A stretch of DNA of 64,000 nucleotides, taken from NCBI GenBank assembly GCA_945890485.1, contig CAMDCN010000006.1, forward strand, positions 62,001-126,000. The letters are read 5' to 3'. Made by a program: the position numbers and the translations under genes. Origin of the DNA: Candidatus Sulfopaludibacter sp. SbA3 (GTDB taxonomy: Bacteria > Acidobacteriota > Terriglobia > Bryobacterales > Bryobacteraceae). Shown piece after piece: positions 386 through 9,947 of this stretch. How positions within the stretch are numbered: the first letter of the stretch is position 1; every line of letters begins with the position of its first letter. Under the pieces are notes generated by a model. It was given only the letters and a program-made list of their open reading frames with translations. It ran no database searches and was not told the origin of the DNA.

Positions 386-1690
386 TTAGTAGGCCTTTCT
401 CCAAAGCTGAGGACGCCAGAACCAAACGAACCCAATGACGATGCTGCTGCCGAGCGCGGCGGAATGCCAACCGCGGTGAACCAGCTCGTAGACCCCAGCC
501 CCGATGACCCAGGAGGCGAGCAGGCGCATGGCCAGAGCCACGGGAATGCGCGCGAACCAGAGTTGCAGGAGCCACGGGAAGAGAACCACATTGGCCATGG
601 ACCAAGCGCCGGCGACGCCGAGCAGCGGCGTGGCGGCGGCATAGAGCGCCGTGAACGCCAGCTTCCAGCCGAAGACCGCGCGATGGCGATGGGCGGCCAG
701 CATAGCCGAAGAGATGATGCCCCAGCAGCAGGAGGATAGAAGGTAGCCGGGGAGGAAGAGAATGATGGTCCACGACGCTTCCCGCCAGACTTCGCCAAAC
801 AGAAGCGGGAGCCAGAGGGGGCTCCAGCCGGCGAAGAGCGCCAAGGGGAAGCCGGTGAGCAGGGTGAGCTGTTCGACGTGCGTGAGGGTAATGGGCAGGA
901 GGTCGGGATCGACTTGACGCTGGCGGCCATAAAGGGGGAGGCCGAGGCGAGGGATAGCCGCAGTCAAGAAGAGGGTTTGGCGATAGAGGCGGAAGGCCAG
1001 TTCGACAAAGGCGAGATGGACAGGCGTCGAGAAACGGGCGCCAATGACGGAGGCGACGGAGCCGGAGAGGACTCCGAGGAGGCTGTTCCCGATGGTGGCG
1101 AAAGCGAACCCGCGCACCCGTCGCCATGTGGCCTGTCGATATACCAAGCTGACGGGGCAGGGGCGGAGAAGGAACGCCAGCGCGCTTGGCAAGGCGCCTC
1201 GGAGGACCAGCGCGGCGGAGACGCCCAGACGGCTCTCTCCGGCCCACGCTCCGCCGACGGCGACCACAGTGAACAGGATCGTTTCAAAAAGCTCGACGAG
1301 CATGACGCGCTGGAAGGCGAGGTCGCGTTCGAGGAGGGCGACGGGCACGGCGCGCCAGCCGAGGAAGTAGACAGCGGCGGCGGAGGAGAGGCGCAAGTCG
1401 ATGTCACCCGGTGAGAGCGCGAAGAGCAGGAGCGCGAGGACCGCGGCAGTAGCGTGTTGTAGCGCGAAGAGGCTCTCGATGTCCGCCTCGCCGGGCTCCC
1501 GGACGAGCCAAGTGGCGAACCCTCGAGTGGCGAGTTCGGAGGAACTGACATACAGCAGGAGGGGAACGGCGAACTGCCCCCAATCCTCCGGGGTGAGGAG
1601 GCGGAGGAGAATGACTCCTCCGAGGAAGTTCACCAGCATGGCTCCGCCATAACGGATCGCCAACCAGAAGATGCCCGCGGAAGCGATCAT
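386..1690 (-). CDS. Oligosaccharide flippase (polysaccharide biosynthesis membrane protein)
   Basis: A 434-residue, strongly hydrophobic protein with about 12 predicted membrane segments. The N-terminus (IRYGGAMLVNFLGGVILLRL, then LTPEDWGQFAV) is typical of the Wzx/MATE-like flippases that move undecaprenyl-linked oligosaccharide across the inner membrane. I chose the ATG at 1690 because it overlaps the stop of the WecG-type gene in an ATGA and is followed at once by the first helix; the frame stays open further upstream (to 1804), but that part is basic, proline-rich and overlaps WecG. It sits between a glycosyltransferase and an asparagine synthetase in an exopolysaccharide operon, which supports glycan export. 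Confidence 0.8.
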   Translation of the reverse strand: MIASAGIFWLAIRYGGAMLVNFLGGVILLRLLTPEDWGQFAVPLLLYVSSSELATRGFATWLVREPGEADIESLFALQHATAAVLALLLFALSPGDIDLRLSSAAAVYFLGWRAVPVALLERDLAFQRVMLVELFETILFTVVAVGGAWAGESRLGVSAALVLRGALPSALAFLLRPCPVSLVYRQATWRRVRGFAFATIGNSLLGVLSGSVASVIGARFSTPVHLAFVELAFRLYRQTLFLTAAIPRLGLPLYGRQRQVDPDLLPITLTHVEQLTLLTGFPLALFAGWSPLWLPLLFGEVWREASWTIILFLPGYLLSSCCWGIISSAMLAAHRHRAVFGWKLAFTALYAAATPLLGVAGAWSMANVVLFPWLLQLWFARIPVALAMRLLASWVIGAGVYELVHRGWHSAALGSSIVIGFVWFWRPQLWRKAY

Positions 1691-2502
1691 GCGCGGCGGG
1701 CCCTGCGAAGCAGTTCGCGGCAAAGGAGCAAAAGGAAGGCGCTGTTGCTGGCGATGTATCGCCAGAGGAGCCGGCGGGGTTCCTGGATCAGCCGCCAGGA
1801 CCACTCGAGTCCCGCTCGTTGCATCCAGACGGGGGCACGGTCGACGTTGCCAGCCCAGACGTCCATAGCGCCCCCGACGCCGATACCGACGCGGCAGCCG
1901 GTGGCCGGGAGGTGTTCGGCCAGGAAGAGCTCCTGGCGCGGAGAGCCCAACCCGGCGATGAGGAGTTCCGCCCCGGAGGCGGCGATGGCCGCGCGAATGA
2001 ACATGGGGTCGGCGAAGTAGCCGTGGTGAGTGCCGGCGATCTGCAGTGTGGGGTTGTGCTTCTTCAACTCGGCGGCGCAGCGGGCGACCGTGGACTCGGT
2101 GCTGCCGAGGAGGAATACGCGGTGGCCTTGGGTGGCGCAGTGGGCGAGGAGGGCCCAGGTGAGATCGATTCCGGTGACGCGGCCGGGCAGGGGTTTGCCC
2201 AGGGCTCGCGCGGCAAGGACGACCGACTGGCCATCCGCGACGATGAGGTCGGCGGCGGCGTAGGCGTTCGCGAAGCTGGCGTCCTGACGGGCGCGGGTGA
2301 TGTGGTCGGCGTTCAGGGTGCAGACAAACGTCGGGAAGGGCCGGCGCAGGGCTCCGGCAAGGTAAGTAAGTGCCTCGTTCAGCGAGATGGCCGCCACAGG
2401 CAGGCCAAAGAGTTCAACTGCTGGAGCAAGTAGCCGTGCGGCCAGTGCCGCTTCCGATCGCGCCGGATTGGAAGTGGTGATAGATGGAACGGATACGCGC
2501 AC
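1687..2502 (-). CDS. WecG/TagA/CpsF-family glycosyltransferase
   Basis: A 271-residue protein that transfers a sugar, typically N-acetylmannosaminuronate or N-acetylmannosamine, to a lipid-linked acceptor at the inner membrane. Family blocks are clear: NADHI near residue 65, VADGQSVV, GSTESTV, GLGSPRQE, GVGGAMDVWAG, and the C-terminal P-x-WM...LEW...RL-x-x-EP-x-RLLWRY. The start is a GTG at 2502, which overlaps the end of the upstream glycosyltransferase by 89 bp. The first ~28 residues are not conserved-looking, so a downstream CTG start is possible and would shorten the overlap. The stop overlaps the flippase start (ATGA). Confidence 0.9.
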   Translation of the reverse strand: MRVSVPSITTSNPARSEAALAARLLAPAVELFGLPVAAISLNEALTYLAGALRRPFPTFVCTLNADHITRARQDASFANAYAAADLIVADGQSVVLAARALGKPLPGRVTGIDLTWALLAHCATQGHRVFLLGSTESTVARCAAELKKHNPTLQIAGTHHGYFADPMFIRAAIAASGAELLIAGLGSPRQELFLAEHLPATGCRVGIGVGGAMDVWAGNVDRAPVWMQRAGLEWSWRLIQEPRRLLWRYIASNSAFLLLLCRELLRRARRA

Positions 2503-3514
2503 CGTTCACCTCCCACGTAAAGTTTTCGAGAATGGTCTGGCGGGCGGCGGCGCCAAGTCGAGAGAGATCGGCCGAAGAGCAACGGCGGATCAGGGAGATG
2601 AGTTCGGGAAGATTGTGGGGGTCGAAAAGGAATCCGTTTTCGCCGGGGCGAATGAGATATCGGGTGCCGCCGCTGGCAGCGGCAAGGACGGGACGGCCGG
2701 CGGCCATGGCCTCGAGCGCCACCGTCGGAAGTCCCTCGTAGGCGGAAGGGAGCACGAAAAGCCCGCAGCGGGTGTAGGCCGCGGCGAGAGTTTCGTCGTC
2801 GACCTCGCCCAAGAAATGTACCCGGCTGGCGAGCCCGAGCGCTTTGGTCTGCACTTCGAGTGTCGCCCGGTGGCCTCCGTCAGGCCCGATCAACGTCAAG
2901 TCAAAGCCAGGCAGTTCGGCGAGGGCGGCGAGGAGGAAATCGACGCGCTTGACGGGATCGAGACGGCCGACGAAGAGCAGGGAGCGCGGGGAGCCGGGGA
3001 GAGGCGACGGCGCCGCTTCCGGCAGGCGGAGGGCGTTGGGGATGACGCGGAAGTTGCCGGCCGGTGCGCCGAGGAGAACGGCGTCGCGCTTGTCGTTGTC
3101 CGTGAGCGCGATGAGGGTATCGGCGAGGTGGAGGCCGAGCCAGCCGAGAGTGGAGTCGAACAGTCCCTTCTTCAGAGCCGACGACCAGGAGTGGGCGGGG
3201 TAGTAGCAGTGCGCCGTAAAGACGGACGGAATCCGAAGCTGGCGGGCGGCGAGCAGGCTGCAGGCCGCGAACGGACGACGGGCGCCGTGGGCGTGGACAA
3301 CGTCCGGCGCAAAGCGGCGGAGGGCACGCGGGAGGGCGAACGACGAGAAGAGCCGCTCAACAGGAACATCGTTCCAAACGTCCGGCCCGGGGGTGCGGGT
3401 GAAGATGCGGACGTCGTCGCCGTGGGCGCGGAGTTCGCGGGCAAGGTTGCCGACGTGCTGTTCGAGGCCCCCGCGCAGGGGGAAGAAACTACTGGTTACC
3501 AGGGCGATCCGCAT
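2414..3514 (-). CDS. GT4-family (GT-B fold) glycosyltransferase
   Basis: A 366-residue retaining glycosyltransferase. The N-terminal acceptor domain starts MRIALVTSSFFPLRGGLEQH and contains DVVHAHGARRPFA. The C-terminal nucleotide-sugar domain has LLFVGRLDPVKRVDFLL and the donor-binding EGLPTVALEAMAAGRPVLA motif (the E-x7-E pattern). The frame stays open upstream (to 3667), but that part is a low-complexity Ser/Pro shadow; the ATG at 3514 gives the canonical start and overlaps the upstream membrane gene by 26 bp. It probably adds a sugar to the repeat unit made by this operon. Donor and linkage cannot be read from sequence. Confidence 0.9.
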   Translation of the reverse strand: MRIALVTSSFFPLRGGLEQHVGNLARELRAHGDDVRIFTRTPGPDVWNDVPVERLFSSFALPRALRRFAPDVVHAHGARRPFAACSLLAARQLRIPSVFTAHCYYPAHSWSSALKKGLFDSTLGWLGLHLADTLIALTDNDKRDAVLLGAPAGNFRVIPNALRLPEAAPSPLPGSPRSLLFVGRLDPVKRVDFLLAALAELPGFDLTLIGPDGGHRATLEVQTKALGLASRVHFLGEVDDETLAAAYTRCGLFVLPSAYEGLPTVALEAMAAGRPVLAAASGGTRYLIRPGENGFLFDPHNLPELISLIRRCSSADLSRLGAAARQTILENFTWEVNGARIRSIYHHFQSGAIGSGTGRTATCSSS

Positions 3515-4850
3515 GGGGCTCCTGCGTGGGAATGGCGATGGTGCGCATAGCGAGGCCGGCGAAGAGAAAGAGCGGGGCGGTGCCGGTGAAGCCGAAGATG
3601 CTTTCCGAGAACATGGCCCCGCAGCAGCGTCCGAAGAGGGCGGCGGCGACGGCGGCGGCGAAGACATTCTGGAGGGAGATCGCTCCGCGAGTAAGAGTAA
3701 CTACCGTGCTGCCGAGGAAGCCGAGGAACAGGAGTACGGATAGCAAGCCTGCCTGGCCCATTAAGGCCATGTAGCTGTTTTCCCCCACTCCTTCGGCGAC
3801 AACCCCTTCGCCATTCGCGAAGCCTCCCGCTTTTCCGATGCCGCGTCCCAGCCAGTATTGGTCCAAGTTCTCTACAGCCTCCTGCATGAACTGTGTGCGC
3901 ACGGAGGCGGAACTCTCTTCACCAGTTACAGTATTTGTTAATAACTCCGAGCCAAGAGTACTTAGTACTAGGCCTCCGAAGAGCAGCCACAAAGCGATGG
4001 AACCGACTCGGGCATGGTGATCCCGGCGGATCCACGCGAGGAGCCCCAGGGCGAGCAGGGTGGCGAAGATGGACTCACGATGGACCGAGAGCGCGAGTGC
4101 GCCCATGAAGAGGGTAAGCAGGGGAATCCACTTGCGCCGTCCGGAGGCGACCAGGGCGGCGACGTAGACGACAGGAACCACGCTGGCTTGCCCGAGGGAG
4201 TGGGGATCGCCATAGAAGGAGACCATGCGGCGCATGCCATGCATGATGTGGTTGGCCCAGAGCCCGAGATGGTTGGCATTCTGATCGGGCTGGAGGCCCT
4301 TGACGTCGACGAGGAAGCCGCCGATCTGTACGACAAGACTCCAGAACTCGAGGGGGAGGAAGAAGAGTTCAAAGAAGCCGAAGGTGCAGACGAGAGCATG
4401 GGTGATGAGGTAGAGGCGGAGGAGAGATGGGGTGGCGTCGGTTTGCAGCAGGCGGCCGGCGAAGTAAGCCAACGGAGGGGTGACCAGATTGCGGAAGGCC
4501 CCCAGTTGCGTCTCGAAGGTAATCTGCGTTTCGCCGTCGCCGAGGCCGAGGGCGAAGTAGATCGTGAGGAGGACGGTGTACGAGCAGAGGAGGAGATCGG
4601 CGAGTTGCCAGTCGCCGAGGCGGGTGCGCTGGCGGAGAGCGTTGCCGGCCAGGCTCATGCCGAGGAGTCCGTCTTTGACCGCGATGAGGCCGCGGACGGT
4701 CTCCGCGCCGAAGGCGAATTGAGCGTAGAGGAGAGGTGGGACGAAGTTAGAGAAGGGCAACCAGACGAGGAGGATTGCGGCTTGCCGGGCCGGATGGAAG
4801 AGTCCGCCGGCAGTGATGGCGGCCGCGAGGAGGGCAAAGAGTGGACTCAT
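3489..4850 (-). CDS. O-antigen ligase/polymerase-like membrane protein
   Basis: A 453-residue polytopic protein with about 10-12 hydrophobic segments and a large hydrophilic loop around residues 290-350 (ending near GRGIGKAGGFANGEG and GVGENSYMALMGQAGLL). This layout is typical of the O-antigen ligase/Wzy superfamily, whose long periplasmic loop holds the catalytic residues. The E-N-S-Y-M-A-L-M-G-Q-x-G motif resembles the conserved H/N-S-x-Y-L-x-L-L-x-x-x-G block of that family. It overlaps the sulfotransferase stop by ATGA. A polymerase for the exopolysaccharide is the simplest reading; ligation of a glycan to another carrier is possible. Confidence 0.75.
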   Translation of the reverse strand: MSPLFALLAAAITAGGLFHPARQAAILLVWLPFSNFVPPLLYAQFAFGAETVRGLIAVKDGLLGMSLAGNALRQRTRLGDWQLADLLLCSYTVLLTIYFALGLGDGETQITFETQLGAFRNLVTPPLAYFAGRLLQTDATPSLLRLYLITHALVCTFGFFELFFLPLEFWSLVVQIGGFLVDVKGLQPDQNANHLGLWANHIMHGMRRMVSFYGDPHSLGQASVVPVVYVAALVASGRRKWIPLLTLFMGALALSVHRESIFATLLALGLLAWIRRDHHARVGSIALWLLFGGLVLSTLGSELLTNTVTGEESSASVRTQFMQEAVENLDQYWLGRGIGKAGGFANGEGVVAEGVGENSYMALMGQAGLLSVLLFLGFLGSTVVTLTRGAISLQNVFAAAVAAALFGRCCGAMFSESIFGFTGTAPLFLFAGLAMRTIAIPTQEPHADRPGNQ

Positions 4851-5671
4851 TGGCTATAGCCGAAGCGGGCGATTGTTGCTGCGTGGTGGTGGGCGATGGC
4901 GTCGGCTTGTTCCGGGGTGAGGACGTCCCGCCAACCGCCGGCGCGGCCTTCACGGAAGAACTTCTGCGCGGCGGGCGGCCGTTCGCAGAAGCCGGAGGCG
5001 TCTTCCTGGGCGCGGAGATTCTTGAAAGAGCAGGCTTCGATGGCGGCGTGGAGGCGGGCTTTGTCGATCGAGTAGCCGCAAGCTTGGAGGAGCGTGGTGA
5101 ACGTGGAGCAGGGGTTCGCGAGCAGGTCCTCGTAACGAGTGATGTGAACCGGAATGGCGGTCTGATCCAGCCATGAAGCGGCGTGGGTGGACCAGGAGCC
5201 GTAGAACTGGGCAAGTTGGGGCTTGCGTTCGTGGATGGAGCGGGAGGCTATGCAGTTGGCGTTCTGGATGAGGGCGATGGTGTTGGCTATGGACTTGCCA
5301 CGATGCGCCGCATAAGAGACGGCCACGTCCCAGGGGTTGCGAACGATGTAGATGGCGAGGCTGGAGTTGGCGGGAGTGTGGAGGCGGGGGTCGTACTGGT
5401 CGTGAACTTTGAAGAAGTGGCCCGGCTGATGTTGGGCCACGGTGTCGTACCAGGCAGACCGGAGGGTTGGGATTTCATCGGGCAGGAGGAGGTCGCTATT
5501 GCAACCGAGGGCTTGGTCGAACAGGGGCCGGGAGGCGGCGATCGGGATGGCGTGAATGTCGTTGAGGGCGACAGGCTCTCCGGTGGGTGCGAGGTAGTTG
5601 AGGAGGAGAGCGCGGACCCAGGTATTGCCCGATTTGGGGTAGGAGGCGATCCAGGTGATTCGGCGTTTCAT
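4847..5671 (-). CDS. PAPS-dependent sulfotransferase
   Basis: A 274-residue soluble protein. The 5'-phosphosulfate-binding loop is at the N-terminus (ASYPKSGNTWVRALLLNYL, residues ~9-27) and the 3'-phosphate-binding motif follows at IVRNPWDVAVSYAAH (~109-123). A later block (RYEDLLANP) and the FKNLRAQED and FFREGRAGGWRDVLT segments match cytosolic-type sulfotransferases, whose C-terminal R-K/R-G loop closes on PAPS. It overlaps the kinase upstream and the membrane protein downstream by ATGA, so all three are translationally coupled. The acceptor may be the exopolysaccharide or, given the location, a modified peptide; sequence does not decide. Confidence 0.88.
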   Translation of the reverse strand: MKRRITWIASYPKSGNTWVRALLLNYLAPTGEPVALNDIHAIPIAASRPLFDQALGCNSDLLLPDEIPTLRSAWYDTVAQHQPGHFFKVHDQYDPRLHTPANSSLAIYIVRNPWDVAVSYAAHRGKSIANTIALIQNANCIASRSIHERKPQLAQFYGSWSTHAASWLDQTAIPVHITRYEDLLANPCSTFTTLLQACGYSIDKARLHAAIEACSFKNLRAQEDASGFCERPPAAQKFFREGRAGGWRDVLTPEQADAIAHHHAATIARFGYSQ

Positions 5672-6558
5672 GGGAGTTGGCCGAGGACGGCGTCGGCGAG
5701 TTGGCCGACGGGGAAGGGGCTTTGCGGACGAGAGATGCGCAGGACGCGCGCTTGTTGCGCTAAGGGGGCCAAGTGAGGCGGGGAAGCACCTACGCCCCGG
5801 AAGGCTGGAACCAGGTTTGCGCGATAGACCTGCTCGGCGAGGGCGGCGAGCTTGGCAAAGCCGGTGACCGGGGTGATGGAGAGTTCGCCGGGGGCGTCAG
5901 GGGTAAGGAGGATGACGGCGCGGACGGGCAGCGGCGTGAGGTGTGCATCGGCCACGGGTACTTCAAACTTGGGGAGGTTGGGGCGGACGGCGAGAAGGGT
6001 GTCGGTGGCGATGGAGAGCTGGGCGGCGGCGTCGGCCCAAAGCTTGAGCCGCGGATAGCCGGGGTAGACCGCGATAGCGCCGGAATCGACGGGGCCGAGG
6101 GCGCAGATGTCGTCGGCGATGACCGGCATTCCGCGACGGCGCAGTTCGGCGCAGAGGGTGGACTTCCCCGCGCCCGAGGGGCCGGCAACGAGGATGGCGC
6201 CGGAAGGCGTAGCGACGGCGCTGGCGTGGAGAACAAGGGCGCCACGTTGATGGAGGAGCGCGCCGAACACGGAACCGAACAGGAAGAGGCGGATGGATTC
6301 TGGATCGGCGTTGGCAGCCGGTTCGATGGTGATCTGCCGGCCGCTATTGACGAAGTAGCGGCCGACAGAGTCGAGGTGGAAGAGGTAGCCCTGTGGTCCC
6401 GCCTGGTAGCAGAGTCCGGACTGGCGGACGTCGTCGAGTTGATCGGGAGTGGGCCCAACCAGGACCTGGACATCGCTTTCGCCGGCGGCAGGGGCGGAGG
6501 GGAGAGCACCGAGGTCGAGGGCGGAGCGAATCTGAAATCCAAAGGCTTGATAGAACAT
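5668..6558 (-). CDS. HPr-kinase-like ATP-binding protein, putative peptide C-terminal serine kinase
   Basis: A 296-residue protein of the HprK-related family. Residues ~105-114 read RGALVLHASA, then a Walker A loop GPSGAGKST (126-134), VIADDIC (147-152, the acidic pair that in HprK coordinates Mg and activates the acceptor), and YPGYPRLKLW downstream. The N-terminal ~95 residues are a non-HPr domain. No HPr-type PTS context is present. In paeninodin-type lasso clusters, enzymes of this family phosphorylate the C-terminal serine of the precursor peptide. Here the gene starts 8 nt after peptide D, and all four peptides in the operon end in serine. The assignment as peptide kinase is inference from that match; the family membership is clear. 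Confidence 0.8.
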   Translation of the reverse strand: MFYQAFGFQIRSALDLGALPSAPAAGESDVQVLVGPTPDQLDDVRQSGLCYQAGPQGYLFHLDSVGRYFVNSGRQITIEPAANADPESIRLFLFGSVFGALLHQRGALVLHASAVATPSGAILVAGPSGAGKSTLCAELRRRGMPVIADDICALGPVDSGAIAVYPGYPRLKLWADAAAQLSIATDTLLAVRPNLPKFEVPVADAHLTPLPVRAVILLTPDAPGELSITPVTGFAKLAALAEQVYRANLVPAFRGVGASPPHLAPLAQQARVLRISRPQSPFPVGQLADAVLGQLP

Positions 6559-6566
6559 GGGCTGGC

Positions 6567-6728
6567 CTAGGAGACGAAACTCGCTCCATCGAAGACGCCA
6601 GCCTGGCTGGCGACCGCTGTTTCAGCGACCGGGAGTTTCTGGAGTTCGGGCGGGGGCGAGTCTAACCGCGTGACCTTGGTAGTGGCGAGGAGTTCTGGTG
6701 TCTGGCTCTGTTTTTCGGGATTGGTCAT
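6567..6728 (-). CDS. Putative RiPP (lasso-like) precursor peptide D
   Basis: A 53-residue peptide starting at ATG 6728. It shares the block PPELQKLPVAETA (residues 27-39) with three other peptides just upstream. Downstream of the conserved Thr the predicted core is V-A-S-Q-A-G-V-F-D-G-A-S-F-V-S, with Asp at core position 9 and a C-terminal Ser. It lacks the Trp that precedes PPEL in the other three. The stop is 8 nt from the kinase gene start. A weak Shine-Dalgarno (CAAGAA) precedes the ATG. The repeated motif within one operon is strong evidence that the ORF is real; lasso identity is inference. Confidence 0.8.
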   Translation of the reverse strand: MTNPEKQSQTPELLATTKVTRLDSPPPELQKLPVAETAVASQAGVFDGASFVS

Positions 6729-6781
6729 AACGATTCTTGTTGGGTTCGCGGGACAGGGGGCCGGCCGGCTGCCGCCGGGGA

Positions 6782-6934
6782 TTAGGAGAAAAAGATGCCG
6801 TCGTCGCCGTTCTGGCTTCCCGTGCTCGCGGTTTCGGCGACGGGTAGCTTTTGCAGTTCGGGCGGCGCCCAAGGTTCCAGATCCGATCCGGGCTGAGTCT
6901 GCATTTCTTCTGAAAGTGTGTCGGGTCGGTTCAC
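6782..6934 (-). CDS. Putative RiPP (lasso-like) precursor peptide C
   Basis: A 50-residue peptide using GTG at 6934. The ribosome-binding site AAGGA sits 10 nt upstream and overlaps the stop codon of peptide B (TCC-TAA-GGA), so B and C are translationally coupled. Residues 22-36 read WAPPELQKLPVAETA. If the Thr is at position -2 as in lasso leaders, the core is S-T-G-S-Q-N-G-D-D-G-I-F-F-S: a Ser1, Asp at 8 and 9, and a C-terminal Ser, which meets known lasso ring rules. An internal ATG at codon 11 is a possible alternative start but has no better ribosome-binding site. Confidence 0.8.
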   Translation of the reverse strand: MNRPDTLSEEMQTQPGSDLEPWAPPELQKLPVAETASTGSQNGDDGIFFS

Positions 6935-6947
6935 GAATGGTTGGTCC

Positions 6948-7124
6948 TTAGGAGCCGGTAAGGCCGTCAGGATTGACTCCTGGCCCTCCCGCCGCAGTTT
7001 CAGCGACCGGGAGTTTTCTCAATTCGGGGGAATTCCAGTTTTCTTTCTGAGCTTCTGGTGTGGCTAGGGATTCGGCCTCGGGAGACGGGTCCGGCTGGCA
7101 ATTAGTCAGGTTTGAGTTCGACAT
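6948..7124 (-). CDS. Putative RiPP (lasso-like) precursor peptide B
   Basis: A 58-residue peptide starting at ATG 7124 behind an AAGGGA ribosome-binding site. Residues 30-44 read WNSPELRKLPVAETA, the family motif. The predicted core is A-G-G-P-G-V-N-P-D-G-L-T-G-S: Ala1, Asp9, C-terminal Ser14. Paeninodin, as I recall it, also has Ala1, an Asp9 ring and a phosphorylated C-terminal Ser. It is the most canonical of the four. It is separated from peptide A by a 70-nt spacer that contains a hairpin and from peptide C by 13 nt. Confidence 0.8.
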   Translation of the reverse strand: MSNSNLTNCQPDPSPEAESLATPEAQKENWNSPELRKLPVAETAAGGPGVNPDGLTGS

Positions 7125-7160
7125 AAGTTCCCTTGGGATGGTGAATTGGGGGAAGGTTTG

Positions 7161-7181
7161 GGCGTCGGCTCCGCCGGCGCC
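7161..7181 (-). other. Hairpin between precursor peptides A and B
   Basis: On the minus-strand RNA, arms of 9 nt (GGCGCCGGC and GCCGACGCC) pair around a GGA loop with one mismatch. No U-tract follows, so it is not a simple terminator. A smaller hairpin (CCGGC/GCCGG, loop GGCA) lies at 6765-6778 in the spacer between peptides C and D. Hairpins between precursor and downstream genes often set stoichiometry by attenuation or RNA processing; that role here is only a possibility. Confidence 0.35.
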
Positions 7182-7194
7182 ATTGGCCCGCTGT

Positions 7195-7350
7195 CTAAGA
7201 CAGTTCCAGGTCTTCTGTGCCGATGATCTTCTTGAGATCGTGCGTTTCGGAGACCGGAAGCTTTTGCAGCTCCGGGGGCGCCCATAGATCAGCGGGGATC
7301 GCTTCGTTAATTGACTGGAATATGGGAGGTTCGTTTATGGGATCTTTCAT
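7195..7350 (-). CDS. Putative RiPP (lasso-like) precursor peptide A
   Basis: A 51-residue peptide starting at ATG 7350 behind a good ribosome-binding site (AAGGAAG, 8 nt spacing). Residues 23-37 read WAPPELQKLPVSETH. The predicted core D-L-K-K-I-I-G-T-E-D-L-E-L-S keeps an acidic residue at position 9 (Glu) and the C-terminal Ser, but has Asp at position 1 and His before it, so it breaks the usual Gly/Ala/Ser/Cys rule for the ring-closing N-terminus. It could be a substrate for a different maturation step, or a decoy or regulatory member. It is the peptide closest to the AsnB-like gene (29 nt). Confidence 0.75.
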   Translation of the reverse strand: MKDPINEPPIFQSINEAIPADLWAPPELQKLPVSETHDLKKIIGTEDLELS

Positions 7351-7379: not shown

Positions 7380-9167
7380 TTAAGCGGCGGATTTGCTCAC
7401 GAGATTTTGCGGTGAAGCGGTGGCATGTTCGAGGAAGAACCCGGCGGCGAGTCCGCAACAGATCTGAGCAGTGAGGCTCTGACGAGTTTGGGGGCTGGTG
7501 TTGGAACCGGCGTCGAGGAGCGACTGGCGCAGTCTTGGTAGATCAAGGGACTCGGATATGACGGGTTGGCCACCGAAGCGGTCGAGGGCGTCCATGGCGG
7601 CCGGAAGGCTGGCTTGCAACCGCTGGACGAAGTCGGAGCTCTGGAGACCGCGGCGGCGATTGAGTCGGACGACATCCGGGAGCAGACCCTCCATCGCGCG
7701 GCGTGCGGGCTCGCGGCCGGCGAAGAAGCCCGGAGGGATGGCTTGGCAGAGGCGGAGGAACCGGGGGTCGACGGTGGGGTCGAGGGCCTGCAGGCCGTAG
7801 GCTCCGGCCAGGGACGTCCAAAGAAACCCGGAGTAGTTGCTAGTGGCCTGGAGCGAGAAGCGGCGAAAGTCGCTCGCCTGCCGGTATTGATCTTCGGCGT
7901 CGAACAGCAGCGGCGCGAGACCTTGTGCGGTGATGAGGGAGGGGCGCAGCACACAGAACTTCTGCCAGGCGCCGCGCCGGCGAAAGCTTCGGCCGGTGAG
8001 TTGCTGAAGCTTGGCCTTGAGGGTGTTGCGCCACGTAGGCGGACCGTGCCAGGAGAGAGTGGCGTTGCCACCCTGGCCATTGAAAATGGCGTGGTGGCCG
8101 TAGGCTTGGCACTCTTCCAAGATGGCGAGGAGCCAGACGGAATTGGCGGTGGCACGAGCCGCGCCGAAGAGGACGACGGACCGTTGGATGGATGTGACCG
8201 GGCAACGGCCGGCGGCGGAGACGAGATGGTGATCGATGTTGGGGTGCCACTGCGCCACAGCGGCCGCGGCGGGGCCCTCATCGAGAATGCGAAAGGGATC
8301 GAACTTTCCCTTGGGGTGGTGGGCCGGCACTGAAGTGAAGGCGCGGAGACGCTGGCCGGAACCGGCGAGGAGCCGGGCGGCAGTGGCGGTAACTGCACCG
8401 GAATCGAGTCCGCCGCTGAGTGTAGAGGCGGGCTTGAGAACGGTGCGAACGCGGGACTCGACGGCGCGCCGGAACGTATCTTCGAATTTTAGTTGGAGAT
8501 CGTCCGTGGAGCCGCGAAGGGGTTCGACCGGTTCCTGGAGATCCCAATACCGGATCTGGCGGCAGGACGCGGCGGTGACTTCGAGCGCGTGCCCGGCGAC
8601 GAGCCGCTTGACGCCCCGAAAGCCGGTGTCGGTGGATTGGTTCGCGAGTATGCTGAGGGAGAGGGCGAGGTTTTCCCAATTGACCTCGCGGGGAACGGAG
8701 GGGACTGCGAGTACGGCATCGATGTGGCCGGCGCAGGCGAAGCTGCCGGGGGCGTGGTAGTAGTAAAGACCGGCGCTGCCAAAGGGATCGCGGGCGACGA
8801 TCAGCCGGCGGGTGCGATGGTTCCAGGCGGCGAACTGCCAGTCGCCGTGGAGGCGGGTGAGGCACTTGAGTTCGAGGCGGAGGAAGGCCTGGAAGGCGAG
8901 GGCGGAGTCGGAGATGGTCGCAGGGAGATGGAGGGCGAGGAGGAGTTCATCGCGATAGTCGAGGCGGGCGTTGCCGACCCAGGTCCAGCCGCTGGCCGCG
9001 TCCGTGAATAGGCCGGAGTTGCGTCCGCCGGCGGGCTGGACGAAGCCGAGGGAAACGCCATCGGGCCCGGCGTACTGGCCATTCGGCGTACCGGGAGGGG
9101 CCATGGCGTAGAGCATGCCGTGTAGGGGAGACGGTCCGTCGGTGAGGGCAACGCAGACAGAGGTCAT
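7380..9167 (-). CDS. Asparagine-synthetase-like enzyme lacking Cys2, putative lasso peptide cyclase
   Basis: A 595-residue protein with the two-domain asparagine synthetase layout. The N-terminal domain keeps landmarks such as LHGDWQFAAWNHRTRRLIVA and ARDPFGSAGLYYY but starts MTSVCVAL, without the Cys2 nucleophile needed to hydrolyse glutamine. The synthetase domain has the ATP pyrophosphatase loop SGGLDS at 251-256. The usual GGDELF block is replaced by NGQGGNATLSWHG (363-375). Loss of the glutaminase and drift of this second motif are what I expect of lasso macrolactam synthetases, which adenylate an Asp/Glu side chain. It lies directly upstream of the four precursor peptides. Role as cyclase is inference; superfamily is clear. 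Confidence 0.8.
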   Translation of the reverse strand: MTSVCVALTDGPSPLHGMLYAMAPPGTPNGQYAGPDGVSLGFVQPAGGRNSGLFTDAASGWTWVGNARLDYRDELLLALHLPATISDSALAFQAFLRLELKCLTRLHGDWQFAAWNHRTRRLIVARDPFGSAGLYYYHAPGSFACAGHIDAVLAVPSVPREVNWENLALSLSILANQSTDTGFRGVKRLVAGHALEVTAASCRQIRYWDLQEPVEPLRGSTDDLQLKFEDTFRRAVESRVRTVLKPASTLSGGLDSGAVTATAARLLAGSGQRLRAFTSVPAHHPKGKFDPFRILDEGPAAAAVAQWHPNIDHHLVSAAGRCPVTSIQRSVVLFGAARATANSVWLLAILEECQAYGHHAIFNGQGGNATLSWHGPPTWRNTLKAKLQQLTGRSFRRRGAWQKFCVLRPSLITAQGLAPLLFDAEDQYRQASDFRRFSLQATSNYSGFLWTSLAGAYGLQALDPTVDPRFLRLCQAIPPGFFAGREPARRAMEGLLPDVVRLNRRRGLQSSDFVQRLQASLPAAMDALDRFGGQPVISESLDLPRLRQSLLDAGSNTSPQTRQSLTAQICCGLAAGFFLEHATASPQNLVSKSAA

Positions 9168-9173
9168 GGGAGG

Positions 9174-9947
9174 TTACCAGAGGTTCCGATTGATGAGCAG
9201 GCCTTGGCTGGGGAAGAGGGGGAGGATCGTGAACTCGGGGAAGGCCGCGGTGAATTCGGCCAGGGCCCGGTCGACACCGCGGCAGCGGCGGTTGACGTCG
9301 TCGATGATGATGGCGCTGCGCGGGGCCAGCCGGGGGCGGAGCCAGGCGAGCGATTCGCAGGTGGCGAGGTAGACGTCGACGTCCAGATGACAGAGCGCGA
9401 TGGGTCCGAGTTCGACGCCCTCTGCCGCGGCCGGGAAGAAGCCACGGTGGACGTGGGCGAAGGGGAAAGGCGCGAGCAGGTTGCGGACGCGATCAAACGA
9501 CGTGTCGAGGAAATCGTCGAGGCGGAACAGATCGTCGTCCGGGGTAAGTTCAGAGAAGCCACCGGTCTCGAACGGATCGAAGCAGTGGAAGCTTCTCGGC
9601 TCGGAGCCGGAGGCGATGGCGTTGCACAGATGGAGAGCGCTGCCGCCGCGCATGGATCCGACTTCGAGGAAGGCGCCGGGTCCGACAAGGCGAGTGTAGT
9701 TCCAAAGATTGGCGAGACGGGCATGATCGAGCAGCGTATGGAACCTAACTTGGGCGATCGACGTCTGGTAGGCGGGATCGTGGAGCACCTCGACGTTGCC
9801 GGTGTCGATGGGCGGGAGGAGCAGGCGGCGCCGTTCGGCGGCGTACCGGTGACGCCGGACCGGGGTACCGAGGAGATGGAGCAGATCCCACTTGCGGGAG
9901 TTCAATTGCCAGCGCGTCAAATTGTCGAGGAACCAGTTTGCAACCAT
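9174..9947 (-). CDS. TylF/MycF-like SAM-dependent O-methyltransferase
   Basis: A 257-residue class I methyltransferase. The SAM-binding loop is FLEVGSMRGGSALHLCNAI (residues ~93-111). The acidic HLDVDVYLATCESLAWLRP segment and AIIIDDVN (~218-225) match the metal-binding Asp residues of the macrocin O-methyltransferase family. The ATG at 9947 is the first gene of the long minus-strand operon, and its stop is 6 nt before the AsnB-like start. Family members methylate sugar hydroxyls, so it could act on the exopolysaccharide or tailor the peptide product. The gene at 10017 is divergent, so the operon promoter should lie in 9948-10016. Confidence 0.82.
   Translation of the reverse strand: MVANWFLDNLTRWQLNSRKWDLLHLLGTPVRRHRYAAERRRLLLPPIDTGNVEVLHDPAYQTSIAQVRFHTLLDHARLANLWNYTRLVGPGAFLEVGSMRGGSALHLCNAIASGSEPRSFHCFDPFETGGFSELTPDDDLFRLDDFLDTSFDRVRNLLAPFPFAHVHRGFFPAAAEGVELGPIALCHLDVDVYLATCESLAWLRPRLAPRSAIIIDDVNRRCRGVDRALAEFTAAFPEFTILPLFPSQGLLINRNLW

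Follow-up and report, generated by a model that had tools for sequence, protein, structure and literature searches.

The four consecutive small genes on the minus strand of the window, the whole 64,000-nucleotide stretch of DNA from Candidatus Sulfopaludibacter sp. SbA3 analysed here, most probably encode substrates of one shared lasso peptide pathway of the paeninodin type, as judged from the sequences of the precursors and their neighbours. The first-pass annotation had taken them for a clan of lasso-type RiPP substrates, and this view gains support from the genes for a PqqD-like protein (B1) and a leader peptidase (B2) in the same locus as well as from conserved homologues in related genomes. 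The precursor genes follow an AsnB-like gene and precede genes for an HPr-kinase-like protein and a sulfotransferase, all on the minus strand:

9174..9947, minus strand: O-methyltransferase (TylF-like), located 6 bp upstream of the gene for the cyclase
7380..9167, minus strand: putative lasso cyclase (C), an AsnB-like protein of 595 aa with an intact SGGLDS and without Cys at position 2
7195..7350, minus strand: precursor A, 51 aa; predicted core after T(-2)-H DLKKIIGTEDLELS, putative acceptor E9
6948..7124, minus strand: precursor B, 58 aa; predicted core AGGPGVNPDGLTGS, putative acceptor D9
6782..6934, minus strand: precursor C, 50 aa, GTG start; predicted core STGSQNGDDGIFFS, putative acceptor D9 (in addition D8)
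6567..6728, minus strand: precursor D, 53 aa; predicted core VASQAGVFDGASFVS, putative acceptor D9, leader Trp replaced by Ser
5668..6558, minus strand: HPr-kinase-like kinase (K), H-x14-G-x2-G-x-G-K-S-x15-DD, Pfam and NCBIfam matches below cut-off
4847..5671, minus strand: sulfotransferase, PF00685 with 85 bits (cut-off 22), ASYPKSGNTW loop

From the cyclase over precursors A, B, C and D to the kinase, the gaps measure 29, 70, 13, 53 and 8 bp, and the kinase and sulfotransferase genes overlap by 4 bp, a spacing that fits a single operon. The lengths of 51, 58, 50 and 53 residues and the common leader motif [W/S]xxPELxKLPVxET agree with the earlier description of the peptides, including the absence of the leader Trp from D alone, and so do the acidic residue 11 positions after the Thr (core position 9) and the final Ser, both of which also recur in all 12 relatives. 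A profile of these 12 peptides from other genomes (12 rows of a joint alignment that also held the four of the window, 1 residue being clipped from one row) recovered the four precursors from the six frames of the window with E-values of 1.4e-18, 9e-17, 8e-14 and 2e-10, the next match in the window having an E-value of 0.44. A DNA pattern for PEL..KLPV occurs four times in the 7.1-Mb genome, always at the precursor locus, and the reversed control pattern not once; neither the pattern nor the profile found further precursors elsewhere in this genome. Searching the PDB with the precursor profile gave nothing useful.

Within the genus, 16 precursors are present in five of 19 genomes, i.e. four in the window's genome, five each in G009 and G001 and one each in G010 and G016. 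D or E 11 residues after the Thr, the final Ser, the leader Pro and Leu-7 are found in all 16, the leader Trp and Leu-10 in 15 (Leu-10 is once Ile). The predicted cores have 14-15 residues; STGSQNGDDGIFFS, NTGSQNGDDGVFFS and ATGSQNGDDGIFFS recur nearly identically between genomes, and others diverge widely. Collapsing at 70% identity leaves 11 distinct cores of the 16. Among these 11, entropy is lowest at core positions 9 and 14 (0.44 bits each; 1.10-2.59 bits at the other 12 positions). Within-core shuffling gave P = 4e-11 for acidic residues throughout at position 9 (5e-10 for any one position) and P = 1.5e-9 for Ser at the end of every core, values that are optimistic because the precursor sequences are related. 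The precursor neighbourhood is kept in G009, G001, G010 and G016, in G010 spread over broken contigs, and AsnB-like and kinase neighbours accompany the precursors in 5/5 genomes (the G010 kinase being cut by a contig end). The earlier reading had been staked on the absence of homologues that lack the acidic residue, the terminal Ser or an AsnB-like or kinase neighbour, and within the genus no such homologue turned up among the 16 precursors of the five genomes. We also ran the profile against 237 family genomes and 396 evenly drawn phylum genomes, which gave matches in 7/237 and 1/396 (the window's own); up to 28 (family) and 17 (phylum) candidates per genome were scored, part of the first-look set, so that distant members may be missed. 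Five of the seven family-genome matches were judged real. The match in G243 (E = 0.002) lies among genes judged unrelated by eye, and that in G192 (E = 0.003) was set aside as it is partial and on a contig other than that of this genome's B2.

In 18 kb read outside the window, the following genes lie on the same contig and on the same strand as the precursors; with the window genes, those for B1, B2 and the nucleotidyltransferase complete the set B1, B2, C, K, S and N:

from C6:51516, strand of the precursors: B2 leader peptidase, NF033537 with 82 bits (cut-off 33)
C6:51910-52206, strand of the precursors: PqqD-like B1, Pfam PqqD with 49 bits (cut-off 23), NF033536 with 60 bits
from C6:50479, strand of the precursors: NTP_transf_5 nucleotidyltransferase, PF14907 with 162 bits
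C6:49285-50472, strand of the precursors: SelA-like PLP enzyme

B2 is the sole PF13471 match of the genome (G000:C6:51528-51854), about 10 kb outside the window's first base, and its Cys and HAW motifs are visible in the sequence. In the PDB, B1 matches the lasso PqqD chaperone 9x90 (E = 1e-7) and TbiB1 (5v1u, E = 7e-7); its score below the cut-off of the lasso PqqD model NF033536 (60 vs 80 bits) counts against a lasso pathway. Six of the 19 genus genomes have B2, i.e. all five with precursors and G015, in which the profile search found no matching precursor, and a second B2 is located elsewhere in G001, G010 and G016. Of the features of the lasso class, B2 in the locus, B1 and an AsnB-like cyclase with SGGxDS and without Cys2 are present, and if the cut falls two residues past the Thr, all 16 precursors have Thr at -2 and D or E at position 9, inside the 7-9 range of the class. 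An ABC exporter was not recognised among the locus ORFs scanned, which is a further point against the pathway.

For the AsnB-like protein of the window, the best NCBIfam match is the lasso cyclase model NF033535, with 178 bits against a cut-off of 525, which again speaks against a lasso pathway; in Pfam it matches Asn_synthase, and its AlphaFold2 model has a mean pLDDT of 66. With this lasso cyclase model, a second AsnB-like protein (L006:16480-17940, reaching into the window) has a slightly higher score (187 bits for a 486-aa part, against 178), which also weighs against the pathway. It is unlikely to be the cyclase, as it starts with MCG and matches asparagine synthase best (230 bits, cut-off 267), and the window protein was chosen for its position beside the precursors, its missing Cys2 and the distribution of Asp and Asn in its catalytic motif. 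An AsnB-like search in 61 genomes gave some match in 46. Besides the window's own, there are eight strong cyclase relatives, all from the same genus, with identities of 85% (G009, G001), 68% (G010), 67% (G016), 65% (G017) and 44-57% (G012, G006 and G013, those of G006 and G013 cut by contig ends); a further contig search added one locus of a Clostridia assembly with a cyclase identity of only 20%. The Asp of SGGxDS is kept in 5/5 cyclases from genomes with precursors and is Asn in 4/4 from genomes without them (G017, G012, G006 and G013, with SGGLNS or SGGFNS); searching these four genomes for B2, matching precursors and Wzi gave no match (G013 is just 58% complete). This retention of the Asp together with precursors and B2 is what we call the strongest evidence that the AsnB-like protein is the cyclase. 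The genes for the Asp-less relatives are open and constrained, with dN/dS values of 0.083, 0.070 and 0.190 among G012, G013 and G006 and of about 0.30 for G017 against G010 and G016 (G010 against G016: 0.26). Such purifying selection argues against simple decay, makes a second role possible and has to be counted against the lasso pathway; the Asn-for-Asp relatives (L044:8578-10365, L045:3550-5229, L046:4805-5896 and L048:3243-4361) may possibly represent a retained non-catalytic protein. In G017, G012 and G013 this relative lies near a SelA-like PLP gene. All five genomes that have precursors retain the TylF-like gene; in G017, which has neither B2 nor matching precursors, it is shortened to a 158-aa ORF.

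A different product class was also considered. LPP RiPPs (Paenibacillus lpp) share the HprK kinase, the RRE, the NTP-transferase and the [Y/W]xxP leader logic with our locus, according to the accessible part of their description, and the four peptides could be processed in the same way by kinase, RRE, NTP-transferase and a peptidase without any macrolactam, the AsnB-like protein acting on a different substrate. The persistence of AsnB-like relatives beside a SelA-like gene in genomes without matching precursors would suit this idea. However, the LPP peptidase is of the SpI-like serine type in that description, and our locus has a lasso B2 and an AsnB-like cyclase; the acidic residue at position 9 is invariant and would not be needed in a linear product, and the catalytic Asp is retained by the proteins from genomes with precursors and B2 and by none of the others. 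We consider LPP-like peptides very improbable.

Concerning the kinase, the AlphaFold2 model (pLDDT 90.8) matches PEP carboxykinases best (best E-value 9e-8) and HPr kinase/phosphatase with an E-value of 3e-6. PEP carboxykinase and HPr kinase/phosphatase belong to one superfamily. The motif H-x14-G-x2-G-x-G-K-[ST]-x15-D-D is present in 10 of 12 kinases checked, 5/5 in the genus and 5/7 outside, and absent in its exact form from both G074 kinases. By analogy with characterised relatives, on which the predicted cut site, ring, threading, phosphorylation and later modifications are modelled, the PqqD-like B1 would bind the leader part W-x-x-P-x-L-x-K-L and the kinase would phosphorylate the linear precursor at its C-terminal Ser. 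B2 would cut two residues past the conserved Thr (Thr = -2), and the AsnB-like cyclase would adenylate D/E9 and join it to the new N-terminus, yielding a 9-residue ring with a tail of 5-6 residues, to which the nucleotidyltransferase and the sulfotransferase would probably add sugar or sulfate. Phosphorylation of the final Ser appears likely by this analogy: in the accessible text of PMC8498205, the final Ser of paeninodin-type precursors is the reported phosphorylation site, the kinase of Firmicutes paeninodin-type clusters phosphorylates the C-terminal Ser, some of these clusters carry a sulfotransferase or nucleotidyltransferase, and pseudomycoidin has hexoses on the phosphate. The pseudomycoidin cluster of Bacillus pseudomycoides resembles our locus in having a kinase gene and a nucleotidyltransferase gene beside the lasso genes, and differs from it in that several precursors are present here and glycosylation is predicted by analogy.

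True threading seems rather more probable than a failure to thread, again by analogy. A 14-residue core minus a 9-residue ring leaves a tail of 5, so that threading needs proof, and tails of 5-6 residues are very short for it, which counts against a lasso pathway; lasso peptides typically comprise 16-21 residues, and huascopeptin has 13 with a 7-residue ring and hence a 6-residue tail, as stated in the available part of PMC12427821. The predicted residue 1 varies among V, S, A, D, F and N, and residue -1, Ala in 13/16, is more conserved than residue 1; both points weigh against the pathway. Residue 1 of tested systems is G, C, S or A, and Asn1 was reported as new in 2025 (PMC12670498, in the part available). 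These features would also fit a different cut in the same pathway, with B2 acting directly after the Thr or elsewhere so that Ala would become residue 1 of a 10-residue ring, or else a branched-cyclic product that is not threaded. Ala following the Thr in 13/16 with a variable next residue, tails no longer than the 6 residues given for huascopeptin and the LPP-family leader ending in T-1, the last two taken from partial texts, all favour this alternative. We nevertheless regard it as unlikely, as lasso precursors generally have Thr at -2 (PMC10368454, accessible part), which places the acidic residue at position 9 in 16/16, and as rings larger than nine residues are described as too flexible for holding the tail (PMC12427821, available part). 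The cut two residues past the Thr is our preferred reading.

The leader allows a direct comparison with known systems. The first-pass annotation had proposed a new family with a Thr lying two residues nearer than in the leaders of known lasso peptides; this holds against YxxPxLxxxGxxxxxT and fails against paeninodin-type leaders, since W-15, P-12, L-10 and L-7 is the register given for the paeninodin-like PbaA in the accessible part of PMC13381572. A new leader class was therefore rejected, and the claim of novelty for the leader is not supported. The comparison with lasso precursor models that the annotation had suggested gave a weak match of precursor B to the NCBIfam paeninodin model NF033524 (15.5 bits, below the cut-off of 27; E = 0.011), and precursors A, C and D had no match at E-values up to 1; being below the cut-off, the peptides are called paeninodin-type and not family members. 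With the paeninodin-type systems of Bacillota (PadeA, PbaA) the locus shares the WxxPxL register, separate B1 and B2, an HPr-type kinase and the final Ser; unlike them, it belongs to Acidobacteriota, has 14-15-residue cores whose residue 1 varies, and keeps its machinery in two parts with polysaccharide genes between them; no ABC exporter was recognised in the ORFs scanned. The bsf cluster of Bradymonas (BsfA/BsfK) has, as far as the text of PMC10368454 was available, an identical kinase motif spacing and individual genes for B1, B2, C, K and N. Where our precursors carry Thr at -2 and a conserved Ser at the end, BsfA carries Ile at -2 and a phospho-Ser3, and the bsf cluster contains an ABC transporter gene. 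Lasso clusters can carry several precursors (PMC13381572, same part), so that the leader type, the enzyme set and the presence of several precursors have each been described before (PMC8498205; PMC13381572; both in part), and comparable sets of genes occur in Bacillus and Paenibacillus. The locus differs in its short cores and tails, its variable residue 1 and the halves of the machinery flanking a polysaccharide locus.

In the wider family, 52/237 genomes have B2, with 65 matches. From 40 stretches fetched around B2 matches other than the window-type locus, we kept by hand 26 rows as plausible precursors and sorted them by the leader Pro-to-Thr spacing. Rows with a spacing of 10 or 11 start with W in 10/10 and end with Ser in 8/10 cases, and those with a spacing of 12 in 8/16 and 0/16; the final Ser, invariant in the 16 precursors of the genus, is thus kept only in part by the short-leader precursors of the family. 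In L110, L129, L132 and L147, Thr occurs at a spacing of 10 as well as of 12, and these rows were placed in the 12 class; placing them under 10 instead would leave 8/14 of the short class Ser-ending. Left out of the 26 were chance-like matches, the peptide at L110:8581 as well as L112, L137 and L142, which have no Thr in register and end in P, E and E, and the L127 precursor (Ala at -2, Ser end) was missed by that scan. Spacing-12 clusters sometimes have kinase-like genes, so that the kinase alone is no predictor of the final Ser. The best link to the classical lasso arrangement is G136 (L131), where homologues of kinase, B1, B2 and cyclase form a row together with three precursors that have the leader spacing of the window's four; one of the two precursors scanned fits the paeninodin model (E = 9.5e-4, below the cut-off).

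Some loci of this search deserve separate mention. In a lasso cluster of G074 (L127:1657-7681), two HprK-like genes, two PqqD-like genes and a sulfotransferase gene surround a single precursor, WTKPTLERLSLKQAL-KAAGVVDSSFVQS, in which residue -2 is Ala and residue 7 Asp. The candidate precursors at L137:3829 (minus strand) and L142:2604 (minus strand) have Ile where Thr(-2) is expected, a replacement reported for some Acidobacteriaceae (PMC10368454, in the part available). In G036, a Cys-rich peptide at L110:8581 (plus strand), YQKPAFEYEQVFET-MALTCGK..., is encoded near lasso-type genes and looks like another RiPP; it has a spacing of 10, a Y start and a Ser end, and its leader-like part ends in FET as in LPP precursors, going by the available portion of their description.

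The two lasso halves are separated by surface-polysaccharide genes, which in the window occupy 386..4850 on the minus strand, and the locus runs past window base 1:

386-1804, minus strand: flippase-like protein
1687-2502, minus strand: WecG/TagA glycosyltransferase
2414-3667, minus strand: group 1 glycosyltransferase
3489-4850, minus strand: polytopic membrane protein, O-antigen-ligase-like by our own reading only

Outside the window, an AsnB-type amidotransferase starting with MCG, a methyltransferase, an epimerase, another protein, Wzz, Poly_export/SLBB (Wza-like) and Wzi are encoded between the halves. Polysaccharide genes separate the lasso halves on one contig in four of the five genomes, the fifth (G010) being broken across contigs, and Wzi matches occur in the same 5/19 genus genomes as the precursors and in no other. 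The link to the polysaccharide genes is real as a neighbourhood and as joint occurrence, but physical linkage by itself could bring it about. Among open-licence papers, our search listed none that deals with this locus or with polysaccharide genes dividing a lasso cluster. In G085, whose precursor ends in DGTFFAS, a gene with PAP2 and Wzi domains (L136:628-3177) adjoins lasso kinase, B1 and B2, a capsule neighbourhood in another genus. A glycosyltransferase-4 gene, presumably WecA-like, adjoins related lasso genes in G136. In G017, where this block is missing, weak remnants between the cyclase and SelA genes are kinase-like (41% over 59 residues) and flippase-like (43% over 51).

We hypothesise that the lasso peptides may be functionally coupled to the polysaccharide genes. 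The more specific proposal, that the peptides are attached to or exported with capsular polysaccharide, the phospho-Ser being coupled to a sugar by the nucleotidyltransferase and the route leading via Wzx/Wza/Wzi, is doubtful; the gene placement, the co-occurrence of Wzi, the G017 remnants, the lack of a recognised exporter in the ORFs scanned and the neighbours in G085 and G136 were counted as indirect points in its favour. If it were true, the capsule would be decorated with several ring peptides. Our reading of the four genes would extend lasso biosynthesis of the paeninodin type, probably with phosphorylation, to a group of Acidobacteriota that is represented here by metagenome assemblies only. 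The short cores, 11 of them distinct and all belonging to a single kind of enzyme set, would offer a natural series on the minimum tail length of lasso peptides, and the polysaccharide neighbourhood makes a function of the C-terminal phosphate, perhaps sugar, modification testable.
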